This document shows positions 12,930-62,946 of a DNA stretch of 64,000 nucleotides, in pieces; within the stretch, counting starts at the first letter, position 1, and every line of letters begins with the position of its first letter. Location: assembly GCF_937616625.2 (NCBI RefSeq), contig NC_065576.1:14448501-14512500 (forward strand), in the 5' to 3' direction. The DNA comes from Mercurialis annua (Eukaryota; Streptophyta; Magnoliopsida; Malpighiales; Euphorbiaceae). The notes under the pieces were generated by a model. The model searched no databases. It was not told the DNA's origin and was given only the letters and a program-made list of their open reading frames with translations. The position numbers and the translations under genes were made by a program.

Positions 12930-13930
12930 TGATACTATTTCAGATTCACATAAGGTTGCTTTTCAGTTTTATAGATTGTCAATTACATTTCACTTAAAAA
13001 AATATTCAAATCTTATAATAGACTATATCTCAAAATGCTCTCTGTATAAAATGTCAAATAAAATTGTAGAGAGCATCAAGACAAATTCTATTAAAAATTA
13101 AATTAAGTTAGTTCAGTTGATATAGTTCACATCAGGTTGATTTTCGGTTTTATAGACTGTCAAATATTTTTCACTTAAAAAAATATTCAATTTGTTACTA
13201 CACTAAATTTCAAAATTCTCTCTATATAAAATGTCATTTAAGATTGCTAAGAGCAGTAAAACAAATTTTATTAAAAAATTGAATTAAGGTAGTTCAGTTG
13301 ATATGTGTTCACATCAGGTTGATTTTTGGTTTTATAGACTGCAAATATACACTTAAAAAAAATATTCAATTTGTATATTACACTAAATCTCAAAATTCTC
13401 TCTATAAAAATGTATTTAAGATTGTAAAGAGCAGTAAGAAAAATTTTATTAAAAATTGAATTAAAGAAGTTCAGTTGATATAAGTTCACATTCGGGTCAC
13501 ATTAGGTTGATTTTCAGTTTTATAGTCTATCAAGTACATTCATTTAAAAGAGATATTCAATTTGTGTATATAAAATGTCATCTAAATTGTAAAGAGCAGT
13601 AAGATAAATTTGATTAAAAATTTAATTAAAGTAGTTAAGTTGATATAGGTTCACATCAGGTTCATATCAGGATGATTTTCGGTTTTATAGTCTGTCAAAT
13701 ACATTTCATTTAAAAAGAGATATTCAGTTAGTATATTATATACTAAATCTCAAAATTCTCTCTATATAAAATGTCATTTAAAATTGTAAAGAATAACAAG
13801 ACAAATTTGATTTTGAATTAAAATAATTCAGTTGATATAGGTCCGCACCAGATTGATTTTCAATTTTATAAGTTATCATATACATTTCAATTAAAAGAGT
13901 TATTCAATTTTATAATAAAAAATAAAGGAG
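12930..13930. repeat. Tandem array of ~180 bp monomers (6 copies)
   Basis: The anchor ggttgattttcggttttatag (variants) recurs at about 12954, 13135, 13317, 13504, 13670 and 13851, spacings 181, 182, 187, 166 and 181. Each unit also holds 'cacttaaaaaaatattcaa', 'tctcaaaattctctctatataaaatgtca' type blocks and 'gagcagtaagacaaat'. Copies are well diverged. Some open frames arise from the array but differ between units. Confidence 0.85.
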
Positions 13931-39178: not shown

Positions 39179-42100
39179 ATGGAGCTAGAACAACCCATCT
39201 CAAGAGACACCTCAGCTCTCCAAACCTATTCTTCAAGACTGAGTAACTCAACAACAACGACAAGAAGAGGTTCTAGAGCAGCCGTTGATCTTTGCTACGG
39301 ATCGGAATCGTTCGGGACGCTAGAGATAGGCGTGCCGAAGAGCATTTCGTCGGAGAAACGACTGGCTTGGCTACGGTCTCAGATCATTGGTGATGATATA
39401 GAGTTTGATTCTCCCTTTGGTAAACGAAGACTTACGTATGCTGATCATACTGCCTCTGGTCGTTCTCTTCATTACATAGAGAATTTTATCATCAATAATG
39501 TTCTTCCCTTTTATGGTAATTCTTCTTCTTTTTATCATTTTCTTTAATTTATTGTTCAATGAATGGCTATTTTCTTTCATTTTCACTTCTGGGGATTGTA
39601 TAGATAGCTTAAAAATACTTATTTCATATCTAGGAATAATAACCAAAAGTATTTCATTGTTGATTCTTTTATTTTATATTCTAAACTTTTGAAAACATTA
39701 ATTTTATCTTATTTTTTAGTTTCAGTTTTAATTATATCTATTTTTCAAATTGACATTTTTTCACGCTAAAATCTTTTATATTTGACATATAGTCTAGATA
39801 AATTCTTAATGTTAAAAAGTGCTAAAAATTGAACTTATGTGTCAAATATGAAAGATATTTGAACTTATGTGAAAAAAATTCAATTTAAAAGGAGTGGATA
39901 CAATTGAGATTGCAAATTAAAAAATTAAATAAAATTGACGGTTTAGAAAATTTGTGATATAAATAAAACAAATCAGAAAGATATAAGTAATTTTGAATTT
40001 AACTTTTATTTTTATGCTACTTTTTCAACCTCATTCTTTTTCGTCTAATAAAACAAAATTGAATTTGATACTCTCATATTTAAAAATATGTAACATCTTG
40101 TCAATAAAATTAGGGTTAATTTTATAAAAAACAAATTACGATTTTTACATCTAATTTCATGTTGAACATGATTTTAAAAAGTTGATATATAAATTTATGA
40201 CCTTTTATTTATTTTCAAATCTATCAACAAAATAAAATTCGGTATATTTTTTTTTGAAAAAAAAATAAAGAATTGTTTTAAAAATCGTATTTAAAATGAA
40301 ATTAGATATAAAAATCATGATTTTTTTATAAAATTAACCAAAAAAATTCGTGATAAATAGAAAATTTACTTCCAATCTATGTTATAGCAATGGATTTAGA
40401 CTTTAATGACAATTTAGGACCGACATAAACTTAAAAAAGTCTCAATAAACTCCCATACACATAAACAACTCATTTATAAATTAAAACATATTTACAATGT
40501 TGTGCAGGAAACAGTCACACAAGTGACAGTTACGTGGGGCATAGAACAACAAAAATGTTAGGTGAAGCAACCCAATACATAAAACGAACCCTAGGTGGCA
40601 CCGGAGAAGATGACGCAATCATGTTCTGCGGCTCAGGCTCAACCGCCGCTATCAAACGATTACAAGAGGTGATGGGCATAGCCGTGCCCTCAATTCTGAG
40701 AGAAAGGTTCGTTAAATGCCTGAGCGATGAGGAGAGGTGGCTGGTTTTTATTGGTCCACATGAGCATCATTCAAATATTTTGTCGTGGCGGCAGAGCTTG
40801 GCCGAGGTGATAGAGATTGGATTAGATGAGAATGGGTTGGTGGACATGGAAGGTCTGGAAAAGTTGCTGTGTTCTTATGGAAGTGGTAACCGCCCCATTT
40901 TGGGATCGTTTTCAGCTTGTAGTAATGTGACTGGAATTGAGAGTGATACTCGAGCGATTGCTCGGCTGCTTCATCGATATGGAGGATTTGTTTGTTTTGA
41001 TTTCGCCGCTAGGTAAATCCATTATTTTCTCTGCTATCTTTTCCTTTTTAAGTAGGGTTAATATCATAAAACAACTTTGCAAGGTTTTGCATTTTAATCA
41101 CGCCGTTTAAAAATCGTTATTTTCATACACTAACAAACAATTTTTTCCAAATTCATACACTGTTTAAAATTCCGGTATAAATTGCTGAGTTGACAATCGA
41201 ATAGCGACATGCCATAACGAATCAAATAATGACAAGTCAATAATTTTTACCGAATTTTTGAACGGTGATAGATTCGGAAAAAATTGATAGTTACTGTATG
41301 AAAATGACGATTTTTAAATGGCGTGATTAAAATGAGAAAATGAGTGAAGTTGGTGAACTTTTATTACATTGCCCATTTTAAATCAAAGTGTCTAATTTTA
41401 AATTCATTCCCTAAATTAAAACTATATGTTAATTGACTAAATCAAAGTGGCTAATTTTAAAAATACAGTAGTATCACTTTTGTCGTACCATGACTGATTT
41501 TATATGCTTCCTACCAACTTAATTAATATATCACTTTCCTAAGATATTGTAACTTCATTTATTATTAATTGAGAGTTTTTTGGTCATAATTGGTGTTATT
41601 ATCATAAAAACAGCGGACCTTACGTGGAGATAGACATGAGATCTGGCGAAATAGACGGCTATGATGCAATATTTTTAAGTCCACATAAGTTTCTTGGTGG
41701 ACCCGGATCCCCTGGAATTCTTCTAATGAGTAAAACTCTCTATCGCCTCAAGTCTTCTCCGCCGTCAACTTGTGGAGGTGGAACTGTTCATTATGTCAAC
41801 GGCTTTAATGAGAAGGTAAGACATTTAAGGGCTAAATTGTATATAATTAAAGTTTAAGGATATAAATATAATTGACTAAAGTTTGAAAATGTATCAGTCA
41901 ATACAGCAACAAATTCAAAAATAAGACATAAAACATATTTCAACATCTAATGTTAAAAATTAATTTTATTTATAAATATTGTTCGTTCATATATATATTT
42001 TGTTATTACAAATATACAGTATAATTAATTGTTACACAATATGTTAAAATGAAAATATTATAGTTTTGATGGAAGGAAAATAACAAGTTCATGAAAAGTT

Positions 42101-43452
42101 AATTATATTCATATTATAATATAAAATAAATAATTATATTTATATTTTTGCAGGATACGCTATATACTGATGACATAGAAGAGAGAGAAAATGGCGGAAC
42201 GCCTCAAATAATTCAAACAATCAGAGCATCACTAGCATTTTGGGTTAAAGAATACATCAGCTACAAGACTATTGAAGAAGAAGAAACTAATTACATATCC
42301 ATAGCATTACGAAGATTAAAGTCCAATAAAAACATTTGTATTCTAGGAAACACAAGTGCCAAACGACAAGCGATTTTGTCGTTTCTCGTATATTCGACTA
42401 CCAATGATGTTTCATCTTCTTCATCTTCTACGAAGGATGATCTTTACATGTGGGCAGAGAGCGGGAAGAATAGAGATAAGCCTCTGCATGGGGCGTTTGT
42501 TGCAGCATTGCTTAATGACTTGTTTGGTATTCAGTCCAGAGGTGGATGCGCTTGTGCTGGTCCTTATGGTCATGCTTTGCTTAACATCACTGAGCCTCAG
42601 TCCCTTGCTATACGATCTGCCATACACCAGGTTCATTTAATGCTTCTTTCCAAATTCCTTTTTTTTTTTCTTAACTAACTAATTTTTGAGTTGATAGACT
42701 ATATATTTAAGAGAAAAAGGTCAACCCGGCCTTCAATTTTGTATCTCGGGATCAAATAATATTTTTAATTTTTTAGTCAATTATGTTCAAAAAATTGTAT
42801 CTTGGGGTCAAATAAAATCACTTTAATTTATTAGATTCCAATTTTTTTGTTTCAGAATCAAATAAGTTATGCATTTGAGGTATATAAATTAGAGTTACTT
42901 GATCCCAAGACACAAGTTTAGAGATCTAACTGAATCAAAAAAATTATAAGTGACTTATTTGATCCCGAAACATAAGTTTGGGAGTCTAATTGATTAAAAC
43001 AGTTAAAAAATGACTTATTTAACTCCGAGATATAAATCTGAGTTTATACATATTAACTTATCGGGAATAATTGGTTGCAGGGATATTCAGGAATAAAGCC
43101 AGGATGGACAAGAATAAGCTTTCCATACTACATGTCAAGTGAAGAATTTGAGTTCATTCTCGCAGCAGTCGAATTCATAGCCATTTACGGCCAACGTTTT
43201 CTACCACTTTATCGTTTCAACTTCAATAATGGCAGCTGGACTTTGAAGAAGAAGGCGTTCAAGGACTTAGCACAGCACAAACACAACGGATTCAATGCAA
43301 TCGCTGCTAAAGATGGTGGACATATCATTATGAATAAGTTTGCATCATATCTCCGTACCGCCAAACACATTGCCAATTTGCTTCCTAAATTCCCCTCTAT
43401 GCGTACGCTTCCTCAAGATTTAGATCATAATCTTTTGTATTTTCGAGTTTAA
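39179..43452 (+). CDS. PLP-dependent class-V aminotransferase / cysteine-desulfurase-like protein, 5 exons
   Basis: Exons 39179-39515, 40508-41012, 41614-41815, 42154-42630 and 43081-43452 join in phase (all GT-AG) into 630 codons plus stop, with no internal stop. The start is the first ATG after the TATA boxes. Landmarks of the fold-type I class-V family: YADHTASG near the N-terminus, FYGNSHTSDSYVGHRTTKM at 111-129, GPHEHHSN at 195-202 (ring-stacking His), an Asp (277) in FDFAAS that would hold the PLP pyridine nitrogen, and SPHKFLGG with Lys306 as the probable Schiff-base lysine. A GGTP block is at 362-365, and RGGCACAGPYGH at 477-488 carries two Cys where cysteine desulfurases place the catalytic Cys. 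Likely a soluble enzyme acting on cysteine or a related amino acid; the actual substrate cannot be told. It resembles molybdenum-cofactor-sulfurase-like proteins but lacks a MOSC domain. Confidence 0.85.
41055..41374. mobile_element. Foldback MITE in intron 2 of the PLP gene
   Basis: Starts gggttaatatcataaaacaa and ends with the inverted counterpart 'cttttattacattgccc'. Inner matches include 'cattttaatcacgccgttta' against 'taaatggcgtgattaaaatg'. Same style as 11114-11422 and 20489-20805. No clear target duplication (ttttaagta versus attttaaat only partly alike). It adds ~320 bp to the intron without touching the splice sites. Confidence 0.7.
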
Positions 43453-47579: not shown

Positions 47580-47735
47580 ATCAGCTACAAATGGGTAACG
47601 TCCCGCATACAAGAGACATTCAATGGAGAAAAAACAATTCTACAAACGGGCAACGTCCCGTATACAAGCGACATTCGACGATGAAATAGAAAAATTCTAC
47701 ACACGAGCAATGTCCCGTAATTTATTGAGAAACAT
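47580..47735. repeat. Three ~65 bp direct repeats in the LTR element interior
   Basis: 'gggcaacgtcccgyatacaag' occurs near 47589 and 47646, with a degraded third copy (gagcaatgtcccgta) near 47706. Confidence 0.8.
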
Positions 47736-47899
47736 TTCTCAAAGGTAGAAACTCCTCACTCAAGATTTGAGAACACACCTACAAAAGATCTGACACAAGA
47801 AATATTGTATGAAGACCGGATCTCTCAAATGATGAGATATCCTAACATAAAAAGAAATATAATGAGAAAGATTGGATCTTCGAAATAACAAGAGAGCCA

Positions 47900-49345
47900 G
47901 ACATACAAGATTATATTACATGTGAAGTGGAAGATCCGTTTCTCCACCATAATGAGAGATCCAGACATTTAAAGAATAACAATGAAGAAGTTGAAGACCG
48001 TATATCCACAAGGATGAGAGATCCAGACGTACAAAACCAATAATGAAGAAGTTGAAGACCAAACCTCCCAAGTAATGAGAGATTATGACATATGAAGTGG
48101 AAGACCCGTATCTCCACAAGGATGAGAGATACGGGCATACAAGAACAAAAATGAAGAAGTTGAAGGACGAACCTCTCAAATAATGAGAGATTCGGACATG
48201 TGAAGTGGAAGACCCGTATCTCCACGAGGATGAGAGATCCGGACATACAAGAATAACAATGAAGAAGTTAAAGATCGAACCTCCGATATAAAGAGAGATT
48301 TGGGCACATAAGAAGTTGAAGAATGTATCTCTTAGATAATGAGAGACCGGGCATAGAAGAAGATTATAGGTCGTTGAAGACTAAACCTCCGAAGTTCAGA
48401 CACATAAGAAGTTGAAGACCGAATCTCCGAAGTAATGAGAGATACAGACACAAATAAAATCGAAGATCGTATCTCCAAGACAACGAGAGATCCGAACATA
48501 TAAGAAGATTATATGTCATCGAAGACTGAACCTCCAAAGTAATGAAAGATTCTGACACATAAGAAGTTGAAGACCGTATAAAATATCCAGGCATAGAAGA
48601 AGATTATACGTTGTTGAAGACTGAACCTCCAAAGTGAAAAAAGATTCAGACACATATAAAATTGAAGATCATATCTCCAAGATGATGAGAAATCTGGTAA
48701 GTACAAGATAATATTATATAAGGAAGTTAAAGACCGTATCTCCAAGATAACGAGGAGATCCGGAAGTGCAAGTAAAACATTATATGAACAAATTGAAGAT
48801 CGTATCTCTAAGATAAGGAGAAATCCATAAGTACAGGATAATATTATATAAAGAAGTTAAAGACCGCATCTCCAAGATAACGAGGAGATCCGGAAGTGTA
48901 AGTAATACATTATATGAACAAATTGAAGATTGTATCTCATAGATACGGAGAAATCTGGAAGTACAAGATAATATTATATAAAGAAGTTCAAGACCGTATC
49001 TCCAAGGTATTGAGAGGTCCGGAAATACAGGTAAAATATTACATGAAGAAGATGAAGACTATATTTTCACAATCATAAGAGATTTACAAGTACAGGTAAA
49101 TGCTATTTGAAGTTAGACCGTATCTCTAAATGAGATCCGTTCATTTTAGAAAAATAAAAAGAGGTGAAGACCAAACCTCTAGAATAAAGAGAGATTCGAG
49201 TATATACAAAGTTGAAGACCGTATCTTTAAAGTAATAGGAGATCCACATACGAGAGAATTATAAAGCAGTGAAAGGACGTATTTCCAAAATTATGAGAGA
49301 TCTGGATATACAAGAAAATTATAAAAATTGAAGACTAAATTTCCG
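47900..49345. repeat. Decayed minisatellite filling the LTR element interior
   Basis: About two dozen diverged units of roughly 55-65 bp share 'gaagttgaagaccgtatctc', then 'caagataatgagagatccgg' and 'acatacaagaa'. Units near 48700-49030 form longer pairs (~125 bp period: gaagttaaagaccg units at about 48724, 48854 and 48980). Open frames on the minus strand arise from this repeat. Confidence 0.85.
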
Positions 49346-51808: not shown

Positions 51809-53535
51809 TTAATACCTTGATTAATCAAGTATTAGGAGAAAAATTACAATTAGAATCAAAAAACGGATTATTCCGTGTGAGAAACCCTAGCTTTGTCGTT
51901 TTTCAGAGCTAAGCATCTCTATTTTTTGTTTCAAAATGAAGAATTTTGTATTTGAATATATATATATATTTAGTACTAGCTCAATCATGCACTTTAATCA
52001 AATTCTTAATTTGTCGTCTGTAACTCAAACGAAAAAGACCTCCAAATAACGTGAAACTTTACCAAAAAACTAATTAAATATAAAACGAATAAAAATGTAA
52101 TTTGTATTTGCATCAGACTTATATTTTATATTTAATAAATTATTTAAGATTTATTAGGTCTATAGTAACCTTACTTTATAAAATTTCTATATCCAAATAT
52201 TATCAAATTTTAACAATAACCTTCATTAATTATACTGCGAATATTGAAATCGAAAATATTCGCTCGATACTTATAAATTATTCTATTCATAATTTATATG
52301 TTGTTCTTAGCCCCGATAATTATATAAATATTCAAATTTAAATTTTTAAAATTTAAATTTGACATCCTATAGTCACAATATATTTTTAGGGACATTTATA
52401 AACTAAATTTACTTTTAAATTTAATTTACGTACTCCCGTCTAATAAAATATTAACCACGCGGCATTATTTAATCATTTAAAATTACGGGATGTTACAAAT
52501 TTACTAATATATGTACTCCCGTCTAAGTTAATTAAATAATGCCGCGTTACAAAGATACTACATGCATGTTTTTTAACAGAATATAAAAAATAATTGTAAA
52601 AGTACAAATTTTCAAAAAAATTATAAGAATACAACTTTTTTTTATACACATATAATCTGTAAAATATCTATATAATCCGTATATAATACAAATTATATAC
52701 ATCTTTTTTAAAAGAAAATTCAGATCTATCAGATTTGAAAATTCAATCTGTATATTACTTGTATATAATCCGTATATAATACGAAATATATACGATTTTT
52801 TTAAAATCAGATCTAAAAATAAAAATTATTGATCTGAAAAGCGAAGGAAATGAGGATGAAGACGAACTGAAAATTCAAATCACGAATCATATACAATAAA
52901 TCATATCTATTCATACAACAAGAATAAAATTCTAGATCAAAACATACAAATCCTAGATCTAAACATACAAATATGATTTCATAAAGTTTGAAATCTGATT
53001 TTATAAAATAAATACGAACGGCGGCGTGAGGAGTGCAGAGGAACAACGACGAGATCGTGAGGGAGGGCACGGCGGCGGCGGCGAGCGAAGCAGCGGGGGC
53101 GGGGGCGAGCGGAGCAGCGGGGGCGGCGTAGAGAGGGTGCAGCGGCGAGTGGAGAAGAAGAAAAGTAGATTGTGGTGGTGATTTTATAAGATGAAGATTG
53201 ATGTTTGTGGTGATGGATGTTAATGGAGGAAGAGAGAAAATAAAATTAGGGTTTGAGTAGAGAAGATGAAAAAAAAGGAAGAATTAATATTTTTGTTAAT
53301 AAAAAAGATAAGGTGGTATATTTGAAAATATGAAAAACACTCTTGTAAAGAGAAAGTATAAGATAGCATGTTTATAAATATTTTAACTTATTATGTTATA
53401 GAGTGTAAATATTTCAAAAAAATTAACCTCTAAACTTTTTAGTTTTTAAAAAAAAAGTTCATAAAATTATTAATTAAACTTTAAAATAGTTTATAATTAT
53501 TACATCAAAAGCTAATATTTCAGGTCAGATCAATT
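51809..53535. other. No gene; small inverted repeat and a GC-rich block
   Basis: At 52468-52548 'cgcggcattatttaa' and 'ttaaataatgccgcg' form an inverted repeat, and 'gtactcccgtctaa' is directly repeated beside it (52430, 52515). 53020-53165 is a G-rich block with 'gcgagcgragcagcgggggc' twice, in otherwise very AT-rich DNA. Short ORFs here show no family resemblance. Confidence 0.5.
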
Positions 53536-53539
53536 TTGT

Positions 53540-53870
53540 AGTATCATGATTGATTATATCTACTTCCTACCGACTTAATATGACTTTCCTAAGACATTCA
53601 GCAGCATGAATCTATGTTTTTAACGCCTAATTGACAGTTGAAATTCTTGGTCATAATCGGTGTTCTTTGCCGCTTACTATCTTAAAAACTGCGGATCTTT
53701 AGTGGTGATAGACATGAGAGTTGTTCTTAATTATGTCAATGGCTTTATTGTCAAGGTCAGACATTCATTCAATATTTTATGACTAAGTAAACACGTTATG
53801 GTACATATCAGCACTTATCATCCATCTGACCTGAAAACTTACAACAAATTCAATGCAAAAGATGGTGGGA
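53540..53870 (+). pseudogene. Decayed partial copy of the PLP gene (intron 2 end, exon 3, part of exon 5)
   Basis: 53540-53765 aligns with 41470-41830 of the PLP gene: the same intron tail ('cttcctaccgacttaat', 'tttcctaagacatt', 'ttggtcataatcggtgtt'), then exon 3 ('gtgatagacatgag'). The exon 3 part around the PLP lysine is deleted: it jumps from 'gacatgag' to 'aattatgtcaatggcttta'. The splice acceptor ag is changed to tg and a TAG is present. 53851-53870 matches exon 5 ('ttcaatgcaaaagatggtgg'). Exon 4 is missing. The remainder of exon 5 lies beyond the transposon at 62422. Confidence 0.75.
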
Positions 53871-54096
53871 AAGTCTAAGGTCCAGCGCTGGATCGGTCCA
53901 GCGCAAGACGACAAAACGAATAAGATAACAATTTTATCTCTTGATAACTGTGCTGGTAGGTTGTTACCGGGCCCACATTATAAAAAAAACACACCAACTT
54001 CAGGAGAAATAACCAAGTGCGTGTTGCATATACAATGCGTGTATTACACATGATACTGCACTATGATTTCTCAGAGGGCCCACGCAGAAAAAATGG

Positions 54097-54444
54097 AAAT
54101 TCACCGACTCGCTCTCAACAAACTAAGAATGTGCTGAATTTAAACGAATGATGCCTATTTACCAGATCATAATAGATATTTAGTAGATAAAAATATACCT
54201 TCATGTTAGAAAAAATAGATGAAGCTTTCCTGGGTGCTTCGTGTTTAAAGTAGTTCTAAAATCTTATTTAAAATTCACCTACTCGCTCTCAACAAACTAA
54301 GAATGTGCTGAATTTAAACGAATGATGCCTATTTACCAGATTATAATAGATATTTAGTAGATAAAAATATACCTTCATGTTAGAAAAAATAGATGAAGCT
54401 TTCCTGGGTGCTTCGTGTTTAAAGTAGTTCTAAAATCTTATTTT
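54097..54444. repeat. Tandem duplication, 174 bp x 2
   Basis: Two adjacent, nearly identical copies (54097-54270 and 54271-54444) start at 'aaattcacc' and end at 'tctaaaatcttattt'. They lie in the left, non-satellite part of the large transposon. Confidence 0.9.
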
Positions 54445-54615
54445 TAATATTACGATTTAGGTAATTAATTCTTAATGTGTTCGTATATGGGTCGGGTTTC
54501 TCATGGTGAATTGTAAATATTTTCCATGGAGATTAGCATCTAAAACAGAATGAGTTATGACTGGATAGGCTTGGTTGTATTTGGCAATGGGTATATGTAT
54601 GCATTTTTTGACTTG

Positions 54616-57600
54616 CATTACGACGGCCCTCACGAAAGCTGAAGGACGTCCAGAGACGTTCGGATCGGACTCCGGAATACAAATCCACGTAAAAGCGACG
54701 TACATATAGACCGGTGAAAAGTAAAAATAAACAAGCATCTATTTTACCAACTCCGAAGATAAATAATCATGAAGCTATTAACCCAAAGTTCTACAACAGT
54801 TTATTTGCTCAAAACCATAGTCTTTTTTTTTTATCGAACTCCCAAAGGATGTGTGCCTGTACTTTATTTTTTATCGAACTCTCTAAAAAATAAGAAAAGC
54901 AGATCTATGCGGATACAGGCACCATTACGTTTTTTATCCGGGCGATAGCCGCCGGGATATGCCTCTTGATAGTAAACTTGATTCTCGTAAATCCACGAAT
55001 CGAAGTAAAATAATATAGCAATCTGTGGAATTAGCCGGAAAAAAATAGATCATTATGAATTCTCTTTAAAAGCGACGTATATTAGAACAGAAAAGTAAAA
55101 TAATCAAACATGTATTGTACTTACTCCGAAAATAAATTATTATAAACCCCATATCCATGTCTTTTACTATAAGTCCATCCACTTGGCACCTCAACAGTAA
55201 AACGTGAACAGGGATTCCTCAATCGGACAGACCAGGTGTGCCTGTACTGATCTTTTAATCACTCATCCAAAAAAAATAAGAAAAGCGGATATATACGGAT
55301 ACAGGCACCAGTACGTATTTTATCCGGCTGATATCCTCCAAGATATGGTGTAGATTTCACCGTGGCTCTGCACACGCAGGTGCTTCATTTCGCCCTTTTA
55401 GAAGACGAATCTGGGCACAAAAGCTGCAGGACAGTCAGGGACGTCCGGATGAGTCTAATCGGAATTCGGAAAAAAAATAGATCCTCGTAAAAGCGACGTA
55501 CAAGATATATATCGGTGAAAAGTAAAATAATCATACATGTATTTTACGAACTCCGAAGATAAATAATCACGAACCGTTTCCGTTGCCAAACTAGGCACCC
55601 CGTCGATAGAAAAGGTAAACATGGATTGCCCCAATCGGACGCTCTGCACGCCACGTTTGCTGTACTTTTTTTTATCGAATTCTCTAAAAAATAAGAAAAG
55701 CGGATATATACGGATACAGGCACCATTACGTTTTTTATCCGGGCGATAGCCGCCGGGATATGATGTAGATTTCACCGTGGCTCTGCACACGCAGGGGCTT
55801 CAAGGGAGGTTTCGCCCTTTTTAGAAGACGAATCTGGGTGGGCTGTCCCCCACGAAAGCTGAAGGACGTCCAGAGACGTTCGGATCGGACTCCGGAATAC
55901 AAATCCACGTAAATGCGACGTACATATAGACCGGTGAAAAGTAAAAATAAACAAGCATCTATTTTACCAACTCCAAAGATAAATAATCATGAAGCTATTA
56001 ACCCAAAGTTCTACAACAGTTTATTGGCTCAAAACCATAGTCTGTTTTTTTTTTATCGAACTCCCAAAGGATGTGTGCATGTACTTTATTTTTTATCGAA
56101 CTCTCTAAAAAATAAGAAAAGCGGATATATACGGATACATGCACCATTACGTTTTTTATCCGGGCGATAGCCGCCGGGATATGGTGTAGATTTCACCGTG
56201 GCTCTACACACGCAGGGGCTTCAAGGGAGGTTTCCCCTTTTTAGAAGACAAATCCGGGTGGGCTGTCCCCACGAAAGCTGAAGGACGTCTAGAGAGACGG
56301 CCAGCTTTCCTATCTCTTTTATGCCTCTTGATAGTAAACTTGATTCTCGTAAATCCACGAATCGAAGTAAAATAATATAGCAATCTGTGGAATTAGCCGC
56401 AAAAAAATAGATCATTATGAATTCTCTTTAAAAGCGACGTATATTAGAACGGAAAAGTAAAATAATCAAACATGTATTGTACTTACTCCGAAAATAAATT
56501 ATTATAAACCCCATATCCATGTCTTTTACTATAAGTCCATCCACTTGGCACCTCAACCGTAAAACGTGAACAGGGATTCCTCAATCGGACGGACCAGGTG
56601 TGCCTGTACTGATCTTTTAATCACTCATCCAAAAAAATAAGAAAAGCGGATATATACGGATACAGGCACCAGTACGTATTTTATCCGGCTGATATCCTCC
56701 AAGATATGGTGTAGATTTCACCGTGGCTCTGCACACGCATGTGCTTCATTTCGCCCTTTTAGAAGACGAATCAGGGCACAAAAGCTGCAGGACGGTCAGG
56801 GACGTCCGGATGAGTCTAATCGGAATTCGGAAAAAAAAATAGATCCTCGTAAAAGCGACGTACAAGATATATACCGGTGAAAAGTAAAATAATCATACAT
56901 GTATTTTACGAACTCCGAAGATAAATAATCACGAACCGTTTCCGTTGCCAAACTAGGCACCCCGTCGATAGAAAAGGTAAACATGGATTGCCCCAATCGG
57001 ACGCTCTGCACGCCACGTTTGCTGTACTTTTTTTTTATCGAATTCTCTAAAAAATAAGAAAAGTGGATATATACAGATACAGGCACCATTACGTTTTTTA
57101 TCCGGGCGATAGCCGCCGGGATATGGTGTAGATTTCACCGTGGCTCTGCACACGCAGGGGCTTCAAGGGAGGTTTCGCCCTTTTTAGAAGACGAATCCGG
57201 GTGGGCTGTCCCCCACGAAAGCTGAAGGACGTCCAGAGACGTTCGGATCGGACTCCGGAATAAAAATCCACGTAAAAGCGACGTACATATAGACCGGTGA
57301 AAAGTAAAAATAAACAAGCATCTATTTTACCAACTCCGAAGATAAATAATCATGAAGCTATTAACCCAAAGTTCTACAAAAGTTTATTTGCTCAAAACCA
57401 TAGTCTGTTTTTTTTTATCGAACTCCCAAAGGATGTGTGCATGTAACTTTTTTTTTTATCGAATTCTCTAAAAAATAAGAAAAGCGGATATATACGGATA
57501 CAGGAACCATTACGTTTTTTATCCGGGCGATAGCCGCCGGGATATGGTGTAGATTTCACCGTGGCTCTGCACACGCAGGGGCTTCAAGGGAGGTTTCGCC

Positions 57601-60600
57601 CTTTTTAGAAGACGAATCCGGGTGGGCTGTCCCCCATGAAAGCTGAAGGACGTCCAGAGACGTTCGGATCGGACTCCGGAATACAAATCCACGTAAAAGC
57701 GACGTACATATAGACCGGTGAAAAGTAAAACTAAACAAGCATCTATTTTACCAACTCCGAAGATAAATAATCATGAAGCTATTAACCCAAAGTTCTACAA
57801 AAGTTTATTTGCTCAAAACCATAGTCTGTTTTTTTTTATCGAACTCCCAAAGGATGTGTGCATGTAACTTTTTTTTTATCGAATTCTCTAAAAAATAAGA
57901 AAAGCGGATATATACGGATACAGGCACCATTACGTTTTTTATCCGGGCAATAGCCGCCGGGATATGGTGTAGATTTCACCGTGGCTCTGCACACGCAGGG
58001 GCTTCAAGGGAGGTTTCGCCCTTTTTAGAAGACGAATCCGGGTGGGCTGTCCCCCACGAAAGCTGAAGGACGTCCAGAGACGTTCGGATCGGACTCCGGA
58101 ATACAAATCCACGTAAAAGCGACGTACATATAGACCGGTGAAAAGTAAAACTAAACAAGCATCTATTTTACCAACTCCGAAGATAAATAATCATGAAGCT
58201 ATTAACCCAAAGTTCTACAACAGTTTATTTGCTCAAAACCATAGTCTGTTTTTTTTTTATCGAACTCCCAAAGGATGTGTGCATGTAACTTTTTTTTTAT
58301 CGAATTCTCTAAAAAATAAGAAAAGCGGATATATACGAATACAGGCACCATTACGTTTTTTATCCGGGCGATAGCCGCCGGGATATGGTGTAGATTTCAC
58401 CGTGGCTCTGCACACGCAGGGGCTTCAAGGGAGATTTTGCCCTTTTTAGAAGACGAATCCGGGTGGGCTGTCCCCCACGAAAGCTGAAGGACGTCCAGAG
58501 ACGTTCGGATCAGACTCCGGAATAAAAATCTACGTAAAAGCGACGTACATATAGACCGGTGAAAAGTAAAAATAAACAAGCATCTATTTTACCAACTCCG
58601 AAGATAAATAATCATGAAGCTATTAACCCAAAGTTCTACAATAGTTTATTTGCTCAAAACCATAGTCTGTTTTTTTTATCGAACTCCCAAAGGATGTGTG
58701 CCTGTACTTTATTTTTTATTGAACTCTCTAAAAAATAAGAAAAGCGGATCTATACGGATACAGGCACCATTACGTTTTTTATCTGGGCGATAGCCGCCGG
58801 GATATGACTCTTGATAGTAAACTTGATTCTCGTAAATTCACGAATCGAAGTAAAATAATATAGCAATCTGTGGAATTAGCCGGAAAAAAATAGATCATTA
58901 TGAATTCTCTTTAAAAGCGACGTATATTAGAACGGTAAAGTAAAATAATCAAACATGTATTGTACTTACTCCGAAAAAAAATTATTATAAACCCCATAGC
59001 CATGTCTTTTACTATAAGTCCATCCACTTAGCACCTCAACCGTAAAACGTGAACAGGGATTCCTCAATCGGACGGACCAGGTGTGCCTGTACTGATCTTT
59101 TAATCACTCATTCAAAAAAATAAGAAAAGCGGATATATAAGGATACAGGCACCAGTACGTATTTCATCCGGCTGATATCCTCCAAGATATGGTGAAGATT
59201 TCACCGTGGCTCTGCACACGCAGGTGCTTCATTTCGCCCTTTTAGAAGACGAATCTGGGCACAAAAGCTGCAGGACGGTCAGGGACGTCCGGATGAGTCT
59301 AATCGGAATTCGGAAAAAAAATAGATCCTCGTAAAAGCGACGTACAAGATATATACCGGTGAAAAGTAAAATATCATACATGTATTTTACGAACTCCGAA
59401 GATAAGTAATCATGAACCGTTTTCGTTGCCAAACTAGGCACCCCGTCGATAGAAAAGGTAAACATGGATTGCCCCAATCGGACGCTCTGCACGCCACGTT
59501 TGCTGTACTTTTTTTTTATCGAATTCTCTAAAAAATAAAAAAAGCGGATATATACGGATACAGACACCATTACGTTTTTTATCCGGGCGATAGCCGACGG
59601 GATATGGTGTAGATTTCACCGTGGCTCTGCACACGCAGAGGCTTCAAGGGAGGTTTCGCCCTTTTTAGAAGACGAATCCGGGTGGGCTGTCCCCCACGAA
59701 AGCTGAAGGACGTCCAGAGACGTTCGGATCGGACTCCGGAATACAAATCCACGTAAAAGCGACGTACATATAGACTGGTGAAAAGTAAAAATAAACAAGC
59801 ATCTATTTTACCAACTCCGAAGATAAATAATCATGAAGCTATTAACCCAAAGTTCTACAACAGTTTATTTGCTCAAAACCATAGTCTGTTTTTTTTTTAT
59901 CGAACTCCCAAAGGATGTGTGCATGTAACTTTTTTTTTTATCGAATTCTCTAAAATATAAAAAAAGCGGATATATACGGATACATGCACCATTACGTTTT
60001 TTATCCGGGCGATAGCCGCCGGGATATGGTGTAGATTTCACCGTGGCTCTGCACACGCAGTGGCTTCAAGGGAGGTTTCGCCCTTTTTAGAAGAAGAATC
60101 CGGGTGGGCTGTCCCCCACGAAAGCTGAAGGACGTCCAGAGACGTTCAGATCGGACTCCGGAATACAAATCCATGTAAAAGCGACGTACATATAGACCGG
60201 TGAAAAGTAAAAATAAACAAGCATCTATTTTACCAACTCCGAAGATAAATAATCATGAAGCTATTAACCCAAAGTTCTACAACATTTTATTTGCTCAAAA
60301 CCATAGTCTGTTTTTTTTTATCGAACTCCCAAAGGATGTGTGCATGTAACTTTTTTTTTATTGAATTCTCTAAAAAATAAGAAAAGCGGATATATACGGA
60401 TACAGGCACCATTACATTTTTTATCCGGGCGATAGCCGCCGGGATATGGTGTAGATTTCACCGCGGCTCTGCACACGCAGGGGCTTCAAGGGAGGTTTCG
60501 CCCTTTTTAGAAGACGAATTCGGGTGGGCTGTCCCCCACGAAAGCTGAAGGACGTCCAGAGACGTTCGGATCGGACTCCGGAATACAAATCCACGTAAAA

Positions 60601-61376
60601 GCGACGTACATATAGACCGGTGAAAAGTAAAAATAAACAAGCATCTATTTTACCAACTCCGAAGATAAATAATCATGAAGCTATTAACCCAAAGTTCTAC
60701 AACAGTTTATTTGCTCAAAACCATAGTCTGTTTTTTTTTATCGAACTCCCAAACGATGTGTGCCTGTGCTTTATTTTTTATCGAACTCTCTAAAAAATAA
60801 GAAAAGCGGATCTATACGGATACAGGCACCATTATGTTTTTTATCCGGGCGATAGCCGCCGGGATATGGTGTAGATTTCACCGTTGCTCTGCACACGCAG
60901 GGGCTTCAAGGGAGGTTTCGCCCGTTTTAGAAGTCGAATCTGGGTGGGCTGTCCCCACGAAAGCTGAAGGACGTCCAGAGAGACGGCCAGCTTTCCTATC
61001 TCTTTTATGCCTCTTGATAGTAAACTTGATTCTCGTAAATCCACGAATCGAAGTAAAATAATATAGCAATCTGTGGAATTAGCCGGAAAAAAATAGATCA
61101 TTATGAATTCTATTTAAAAGCGACGTATATTAGAACCTAAAAGTAAAATAATCAAACATGTATCATTATGAATTCGCCCTTTTTAGAAGATGAATCCGGG
61201 TGGGCTGTCCCCCACGAAAGCTGAAGGACGTCCAGAGACGTTCGGATCGGACTCCGGAATACAAATCCACGTAAATGCGACGTACATATAGACCGGTGAA
61301 AAGTAAAAATAAACAAGCATCTATTTTACCAACTCGGAAGATAAATAATCATGAAGCTATTAACCCAAAGTGGAGT
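54616..61376. repeat. Higher-order tandem array of A, B and C monomers
   Basis: Three related monomer types share 'aaaagcgacgta', 'gaaaagtaaaa', 'aactccgaagataaataat' and 'aagcggatatatacggatac'. Type A (420 bp) is anchored by 'cggatcggactccgg' at 54661, 55881, 57244, 57664, 58084, 58505, 59724, 60147, 60567 and 61243. Consecutive A units are 420-423 bp apart. Where B and C intervene the gap is 1220 (54661-55881), 1363 (55881-57244) and 1219 (58505-59724). The order is ABC ABC AAAA BC AAA, then a truncated B and A. Units are highly alike, suggesting recent unequal exchange or amplification. Confidence 0.9.
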
Positions 61377-61715
61377 CATATCTCCAGGAAGTTCTGATCA
61401 TATAGGAAGAGAGCCGGCCAGCTTTCCTATTTCTTTTATGTCTCTTGATAGTAAAATATTATAGCAAGCTGTGGAACTACCCGGAAAAAAATAGATCATT
61501 TTGAATTCTCTTTAAAAGTGACGTGTGTTTGAACGGAAAAGTAAAATAATTATAAATAGTTATAAACCGTTTCCGTTGCCAGAAAGTCCATGTCTTTTAC
61601 TTTAACTTCGTCCACTAGGCACCTCAGCCGTAAAAAAAGGTAATATGCGCGAAGAGATCCGGCCATCTTTCTTATTTCTTTTGTGTCTCCGGATAGTAAA
61701 CTTGATTAATTAACT
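61377..61715. repeat. Diverged B-type monomer pieces at the array edge
   Basis: 'ggccagctttcctatttctt' followed by 'ttatgtctcttgatagtaaa' (61414-61458) and again a weaker copy at 61651-61700 match the start of type B units at 56286 and 60984, but with more differences. Higher divergence at the edge of an otherwise uniform array is expected if exchange homogenises the centre. Confidence 0.65.
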
Positions 61716-62100
61716 AGTCCATAGAGTCGAATTCAGCATATCTGCCTCGTATCTATAGCTATCTTGTTGTGTTATAGGCATAACTCTAATTTCCAATCTC
61801 CAATTGAACCGATTCAAACGTCCCTTGAAACTTTACTCGAAGACCTATAGCTTTATAATGATGAGAAATTAAACGTTTCTAGTGAATGCGTGATTGCATG
61901 GTGACTCTTCACTAAAAGACGTATTTTGTAAAGAAAACTCTTAACCAGTTGGATTCAAACTCTATAAATAGGGGGTTATCTATGTTTCTTTTGTCTACTT
62001 GTTCCCATTAGATGAATTTGTTTTAATTTAAATGTACGTCGTTTTTATTAATTTTTATATGAACTATTTCATCTGAATTGTTCAACCCTCGTATCTATGC
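61716..62100 (+). promoter_or_regulatory. Unique segment with TATA box in the large transposon
   Basis: A non-repetitive stretch with a canonical plant TATA (tctataaataggg, 61961-61973). No long frame follows it. It may be the element's own promoter or a captured one; evidence is limited to the motif. Confidence 0.3.
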
Positions 62101-62285
62101 TTATCTATTATATATCTTTGGGGAGTGTATCCACTCTCTCTATAGATGAGAGTGGTTTTGAAAAAAATTACATGTAAGAAATATTTTTTTAAAATAATAC
62201 TGTTTAACGAGATATATTGTTTAACTCGTGGAAAGTGTATCCACCATCGAAATGATGAGAGTGGGTTTGAAATATGCCATAATGT
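62100..62285. repeat. Diverged direct repeat (~120 bp apart)
   Basis: 'gtgtatccactctctctata' with 'gatgagagtggttttgaaa' (62126-62164) and 'gtgtatccaccatcgaaatg' with 'atgagagtgggtttgaaat' (62236-62274) form a degraded duplication near the right end of the transposon. Confidence 0.65.
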
Positions 62286-62421
62286 CACATGTACCTATTT
62301 ATAATTATTGTTTGCTTTAACCGGTTATACAAGTAGCTAATTGTTTTTGTCTTATTCGACCGCCAAAATACTTGGCTCTCCTTGCGCTGGACCGGTCCAG
62401 CGCTGGACTGAAGTCCGACCC

Positions 62422-62475
62422 AAAGATGGTGGACGCATAATAATGAATAAGTTTGCATCATATCTCCTGATGGAT
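62422..62475 (+). pseudogene. Continuation of the PLP gene copy (exon 5 part)
   Basis: 'aaagatggtggacgcataat' then 'aatgaataagtttgcatcatatctcc' corresponds to exon 5 of the intact gene (43309-43358) with a few changes. Similarity ends at about 62468. It joins directly to 53870 once the transposon and one target copy are removed. Confidence 0.75.
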
Positions 62476-62630: not shown

Positions 62631-62946
62631 GGGTTAATTACATATAAAATCATAAACTTTGCGCCAAGTTTCAAAAATAACATAACCTTTGAAACGTGTC
62701 AATTATAGACACCACCTTTCATTTTTTTCAAAAATAACATGGGCGATTTTTAGTGGCATTTTTGCTGACGTGGTATGACACGTGGCAGACCCATCGGGTG
62801 TCCAAGTCAGCAAAATTTCACCAAAAAATGTGCCCATGATGAAATTGAAAAAAAATGAAAGGTGGTGTCTATAATTGACACATTTTAAAGGTAATGTTAT
62901 TTTTGAAACTTAGTGCAAAAGTCATGATTTTATATGTAATTAGCCC
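62631..62946. mobile_element. Foldback MITE (316 bp), Mutator-like
   Basis: Starts gggttaattacatataaaat and ends with its complement (attttatatgtaattagccc). Arms pair through 'gtgtcaattatagacaccac' against 'gtggtgtctataattgacac'. Flanking 9-mers aaaaaataa (62622-62630) and aaaagataa (62947-62955) match 8 of 9. Confidence 0.8.

Follow-up and report, generated by a model that had tools for sequence, protein, structure and literature searches.

The 64,000-nucleotide stretch of Mercurialis annua DNA analyzed here (the window, C54:14448501-14512500) contains an element of 8,555 bp at positions 53867-62421. With a probability of roughly three in four, the element belongs to a non-autonomous Mutator-type, foldback-like transposon family in which the element's own left subterminal unit has become a satellite array.

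The element is flanked by the 9-bp target site duplication (TSD) AAAGATGGT, at 53858-53866 on the left and 62422-62430 on the right. A preliminary description of the window gave a TSD of 11 bp, and the 11-mer AAAGATGGTGG does occur at 53858-53868 and again at 62422-62432. However, other copies of the family start with GGG or a close variant; therefore, the window TSD is read as 9 bp followed by a GG that matches by chance, with the element starting at 53867. The 9-bp repeats flanking other copies give the same length. Apart from the query itself, the four top-scoring left-end matches comprise three (L002, L003 and L005) that match from GGG and one (L004) that matches from one base earlier. The other copies open with GGG or a near variant, which is GGA or GAA in L021, L022 and L024. 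The left edge given previously (53871) is two bases off, since the 11-mer ends at 53868. The single insertion of 8551 bp described there is one transposon insertion, but its length has to be corrected to 8,555 bp.

Inverted ends are present, as first described, in the form of a 28-bp inverted repeat located 13 bp inside each end. The left arm, GTCCAGCGCTGGATCGGTCCAGCGCAAG, is at 53880-53907 on the plus strand, the right arm is at 62381-62408 on the minus strand, and 27 of the 28 positions are identical. Hairpin folding is predicted at both ends (z of -4.6 on the left and -3.3 on the right). The left terminal 13 bp, GGGAAAGTCTAAG, occupy 53867-53879 (plus strand) and the right terminal 13 bp occupy 62409-62421 (minus strand), reading TGAAGTCCGACCC on the plus strand with CCC last; only GGG of the left terminus is inverted at the right end. 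The left end of the window copy is therefore GGGAAAGTCTAAG followed by GTCCAGCGCTGGATCGGTCCAGCGC, and the right end is GCGCTGGACCGGTCCAGCGCTGGAC followed by TGAAGTCCGACCC. A search within the window copy for long inverted arms gave nothing past 28 bp, and an Rfam search of the window gave no match. Individual copies (L012:5990-6082 and L014:179-232, both oriented) show tandem extension of the GC-rich end motif at a period of 16 bp, so that repeat number varies even at the termini.

The genome searched consists of 451 Mb in 55 contigs, and the counts from this search are lower bounds. There are at least 22 matches to the left end and at least 35 to the right end, with the window copy in both counts and three of the right-end matches representing one end. 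The core end pattern, with up to two mismatches, matches 56 times, at 47 separate positions, against 0 for the reversed-pattern control. The loci read number 21, comprising the window copy and 20 fetched loci. Both ends are present in 14 of them (the window copy and 13 of the fetched loci); L009, L010, L011, L023, L025, L026 and L028 are without a complete right end in the stretch read. Flanking repeats of 9 bp are found in 13 of the 14 two-ended copies, 11 being exact and two having one mismatch (L012 and L017), and L024 is the one exception. When left flanks were mispaired with the right flanks of other copies, none of 182 pairs agreed at one mismatch or fewer. The further copies with TSDs of 9-11 bp that the preliminary description had called for are thus present, and many copies, not one only, carry the same ends.

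The TSD length agrees with the Mutator assignment that had been suggested from the duplication. The TSD of Mutator-like elements (MULEs) ranges from 8 to 11 bp, and the value of about 9 bp associated with Mutator is seen in the same 13 of 14 copies. Long terminal inverted repeats, the other Mutator feature, are absent, as the 28-bp repeat is short and begins 13 bp inside the end. Since MULEs without long terminal repeats are known, the short inverted repeat does not exclude this superfamily. The hAT superfamily has a duplication of 8 bp and does not fit the 9-bp duplications found here. Helitrons are not known to make a target duplication, and the 9-bp duplications speak against them.

The 14 two-ended copies have lengths of 1,930-9,360 bp and unit-like fractions from 0.11 (L020) to 0.84 (L014). 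A further end pair with the matching flank TAGAGTAAA is located at C4:14124825 and C4:14144000, 19.2 kb apart with gypsy-type sequence inside. Another pair, C52:20370942 and C52:20549946 (L011 with L030), is 179 kb apart and has the same 9-bp flank ATAAAAAAT on both sides, with scattered units and MULE genes in between. The shared flank is less telling because it is AT-rich; the pair may be either one insertion filled later by other elements or a coincidence. A family end pair on the minus strand is also seen at C1:15241752-15272379, 30.6 kb apart, and another pair is at C52:23314414 and C52:23320922, 6.5 kb apart.

Array structure and the inverted right arm

Unit-like sequence makes up 0.80 of the window copy, which bears out the earlier figure of about 80% tandem repeat; Tandem Repeats Finder alone covers 50%. 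The tandem array of ~420-bp units has a higher-order pattern and is located at 54627-61371 on the plus strand, with degenerate units at its right edge (61372-61760, plus strand). Its 14 closed units represent three types, with identities of 96-99% within a type and 75-88% between types. The types follow the order 1-2-3-1-2-3-3-3-3-1-2-3-3-3, so that the block 1-2-3 occurs three times along with runs of type 3. A 174-bp left-side segment is duplicated in tandem at 54097-54443 (plus strand). This segment is also tandem in L009 and L011, and is single in L010, L012, L013 and L014.

The copies form two subfamilies. Subfamily 1 includes the window copy and L009-L015, which have a 421-bp unit (unit A) or diverged forms of it. 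L016-L028 have 69-117 bp of left end in common with the window copy, and 10 of these 13 also share 47-108 bp of the right end. In subfamily 2, nine complete copies contain part or all of a ~950-bp unit which itself contains 189-bp repeats. The units of the two subfamilies are homologous in the same orientation (score 48, reached in 0 of 300 shuffles, with the reverse strand at chance).

The right subterminal region of the window copy (61769-62093, minus strand) is homologous to the subfamily-2 array unit, inverted and collinear, by BLAST, shuffles and profile. None of 300 shuffles reaches the score of the inverted comparison and the forward strand is at chance. A profile of 12 subfamily-2 units finds three reverse-strand blocks in all five subfamily-1 right arms tested. 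Two of the blocks (profile positions ~594-665 and 750-806) have identical placement in the five arms; the third falls on a related 189-bp repeat, at 8-95 in three copies, 387-464 in L015 and 198-260 in L012. The best E-values per copy range from 2.9e-10 to 7.2e-8, and 53.8 kb of window background gives no match. Our reading is that an old foldback plan underlies this arrangement, with amplification of the left arm and decay of the right. Because the right arm is an inverted, diverged subfamily-2 unit in five copies, the array is more likely the element's own foldback-like arm than captured cargo.

The arrays differ between copies. The left junction is at unit position 186-187 in six of eight subfamily-1 loci (the window copy, L009, L010, L011, L012 and L014), while L013 and L015 have another left junction and more diverged units. 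The right junction is at 348 in the window copy, L012 and L014, and also in matches at C4:14.142 and C52:20.549 Mb. Copies sharing this junction phase vary in the number of full-length units, and L014 has 18.4 units. A tree of the units groups them by element, with 10 label changes against a shuffled mean of 25.0 and no shuffle of 200 as low; the units of L011 are the only supported single-element clade. Mean unit divergence is 0.010 in L011, 0.024-0.032 within other elements and 0.029-0.041 between elements. Since the junction phase is mostly common to the copies, whose unit numbers nevertheless differ, and since a single array is much more uniform than the others, the arrays seem to evolve in place after insertion, to differing degrees.

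The proposed mechanism begins with a short GC-rich, hairpin-forming inverted repeat near each end and subterminal units inside it, a head-to-tail series at the left and a single inverted, diverged copy at the right. The left series would have expanded into a multi-kilobase satellite-like array. A transposase acting in trans would recognize the ends and mobilize the array together with both of them. From one transposition to the next the array would grow, shrink and homogenize, with unequal exchange or post-excision gap repair as the most likely causes. We infer a MULE transposase, movement after the array had formed, and this mode of copy-number change.

Several observations weigh against this reading. 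The terminal 13 bp lack the inverted arrangement of classical Mu ends. The MURA-type autonomous relative sharing the ends that the preliminary description had proposed to look for did not turn up in the loci read, which leave out the end pairs at C1:15.24-15.27 and C52:23.314-23.321 Mb (30.6 and 6.5 kb). MULE domains, among the 150 listed of 1157 candidates, are not clearly enriched near family ends, with one within 20 kb against 0.8 expected and seven within 100 kb against 4.0 expected. The right arm's inverted homology is to the subfamily-2 unit, whereas unit A of the window copy matches that copy's right subterminal region only weakly (6 of 300 shuffles reach the score). One of six control stretches (window 46000) is also above its 50 shuffles, but its score is much lower (35 against 57). 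Only 1 of 42 branches in the unit tree is well supported. The array fraction is only 0.11 in L020, and Tandem Repeats Finder detects no array in L015.

Alternative origins and the autonomous partner

It is possible, but rather unlikely, that the array itself is selected. The amplified subterminal unit would then be a transposase-binding unit that makes a better substrate, and a copy could grow to a large satellite region in low-recombination chromatin. The candidate case is C52:20.371-20.550 Mb, where the most homogeneous units of all adjoin the left end and scattered units lie between the ends.

A transposon may instead have captured a pre-existing satellite as cargo and dispersed it, as has been proposed for the array of miDNA4 of Xenopus in a review (PMC12628747). 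This seems unlikely for the present family. Many copies consist for the most part of array, and the array of the window copy has no inverted match to the element's own ends past the 28-bp repeat, which would suit a cargo. The preliminary description also regarded the array as ferried cargo that could seed satellites at new sites. However, the arrays of both subfamilies are homologous and in the same orientation, so any capture predates the subfamily split, and the inverted unit in the right arm further weakens the idea. Full-length unit A at 94% identity or more is found at six loci among the matches listed (40 of 127 candidates scored), and every one has at least one family end. No long free arrays of units were seen among the matches listed; seeding of free satellites is therefore not demonstrated by these matches.

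More diverged unit sequence is found in clusters at C52:20.37-20.55, C52:23.69-23.75 and C55:25.10-25.46 Mb. Further instances are L013, L015, C2:17.09 Mb, C52:54.35 Mb and positions within C52:23.59-23.87 Mb. The subfamily-2 unit is listed at no fewer than 36 dispersed loci, with a recognized end within 10 kb in 23 and none in 13. These 13 loci could be taken as a sign of capture, or of units that have escaped into free satellite, but their ends may have been missed because the end lists came from subfamily-1 queries, which undercount the ends of subfamily 2. The end list used for these proximity counts and for those of the MULE domains omits one left-end match (C2:40248726), which is not near any counted place.

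The 14 complete copies contain no open reading frame (ORF) longer than 148 amino acids, and two window ORFs scanned for domains gave no family. This supports the earlier remark that no transposase is visible in the window copy. Two long copies were considered as autonomous members and rejected, as both hold gypsy-type retrotransposon sequence. One is a 12.3-kb copy at C52:48.63 Mb (L049, of which 6 kb were read) and the other is the 19.2-kb copy L010/L031 (of which L010 was read).

A FAR1-type MULE beside diverged units at C52:20.45 Mb may be the autonomous partner, with the array element as its deletion derivative, but this too is doubtful. The gene (L050:924-2404) encodes a transposase with domains PF03101 and PF10551 in a broken frame, and diverged units are located 1.05 kb away. 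It has four close copies (84-100%, next best 37%) among the 108 of 502 candidates scored, all of them in neighbourhoods with diverged units. Two of the four, L050 (1.05 kb) and C52:23.867 Mb (65 bp from the transposase block), have units close to the gene on its 5' side. However, the transposase block (L050:1-2997) is joined to the unit block that follows it (L050:3016-4150) in this way in L050 only. The units at C52:23.867 Mb have the opposite orientation relative to the gene, and the nearest listed units of the two C55 copies are ~7.8 and 12.8 kb off. The unit block is also found without a transposase at several places. Searches with subfamily-1 queries gave no family end beside any of the four transposase copies, and tblastn with the L050 transposase was negative for the window and for the other loci examined.

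It is very improbable that the locus is no transposon but an ancient satellite or a segmental duplication whose flanking repeats arose by chance. Dispersed clusters of scrambled units do exist, but the 9-bp duplications (13 of 14 against 0 of 182 mispaired), the exon remnant interrupted by the element and the 47 spots of the end pattern against 0 in the control all speak against it.

Insertion site and neighbouring features

The element is inserted in a remnant copy of a pyridoxal phosphate (PLP)-dependent aminotransferase gene (class V, PF00266), and the intact gene is near 39-43.5 kb of the window. The joined translation of this gene is closest to a Mercurialis annua protein (1266 bits), followed by Ricinus communis (950 bits). 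The interrupted exon remnant on the right flank (62422-62467, plus strand) is 91% alike to its intact counterpart at 43309-43354. Aligned to the gene, the right flank scores 76 by itself and 93 when joined to the left flank with one duplication. In a control for the left flank, 2 of 300 random window stretches put in its place reached 93. On the left, the alignment contains a gap of 9 bases as well as other differences; farther out on that side, 53529-53719 is 69% alike to 41473-41641. The matching uninterrupted exon reported previously is therefore well seen on the right flank and less so on the left, and the left-flank sequence gives modest support for an empty site.

A 316-bp sequence at 62631-62946, 200 bp to the right of the element, is its own inverted repeat (80%) and opens with GGGTTAATTACATATAAAATCAT. 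It looks like a small foldback element, possibly with an imperfect 9-bp duplication. Adjoining tandem arrays with periods of 55, 61, 65, 95, 108 and 130 are found at 47585-49059 and give no match to the element at an E-value of 1e-3. There is also a tandem array of ~180-bp units at 12945-13726, with three copies and a 165-bp continuation.

Relation to known systems and significance

Tetris, a foldback transposon of Drosophila virilis, appears to be the closest precedent, compared by description and not by sequence. It is non-autonomous like the present family, differs in unit number between copies and has a TSD of 8-10 bp (PMC4079207). It has ~220-bp tandem repeats within inverted arms, and longer satellite-like arrays of its unit are described (PMC4079207). 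The repeats of Tetris are in long inverted arms, whereas here there is a 28-bp inverted repeat, with one arm hugely amplified and the other a diverged unit. The present family also differs in its plant host, its two subfamilies and its arrays of up to 18 units, and no long free array of its units is among the matches listed.

Other systems share part of this structure. Tm1, a Mutator/Foldback element of root-knot nematodes, likewise has a 9-bp TSD and short asymmetric terminal motifs outside the inverted repeat (PMC3169594). Its arms contain variable tandem repeats, as here, but these are of 13-15 bp, and transposase-coding members are known (PMC3169594). FARE1 of Arabidopsis and MuTAnT of Medicago are plant MULEs with foldback arms (PMC4486113; FARE also in PMC3169594). 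Their arms are long and palindromic, and the passages cited do not describe a multi-kilobase satellite array (PMC4486113, PMC3169594). Some MITEs and Helitrons or Helentrons (miDNA4, Xstir, Helentrons) have a central tandem array of variable length in a transposon, as here, but belong to other superfamilies (PMC12628747). A literature search covering titles and abstract openings, with few subscription journals, found no plant MULE with a satellite array and no transposon satellites of Mercurialis annua. Judging from these searches, what is new is that such an array occurs in a plant, that it is so large and confined to one side, and that copies with arrays of differing sizes form a series.

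How satellites arrive at new sites is usually deduced from old remains. A transposon family that carries a satellite-like array to many chromosomal sites is one route of satellite spread, and similar animal cases are known. In this family the intermediate stages are present side by side, from ~3 to 18 units in subfamily 1, at insertions that keep their 9-bp duplications. Such insertions offer known sites at which growth of an array after insertion could be measured, also by comparing individuals of the same species.

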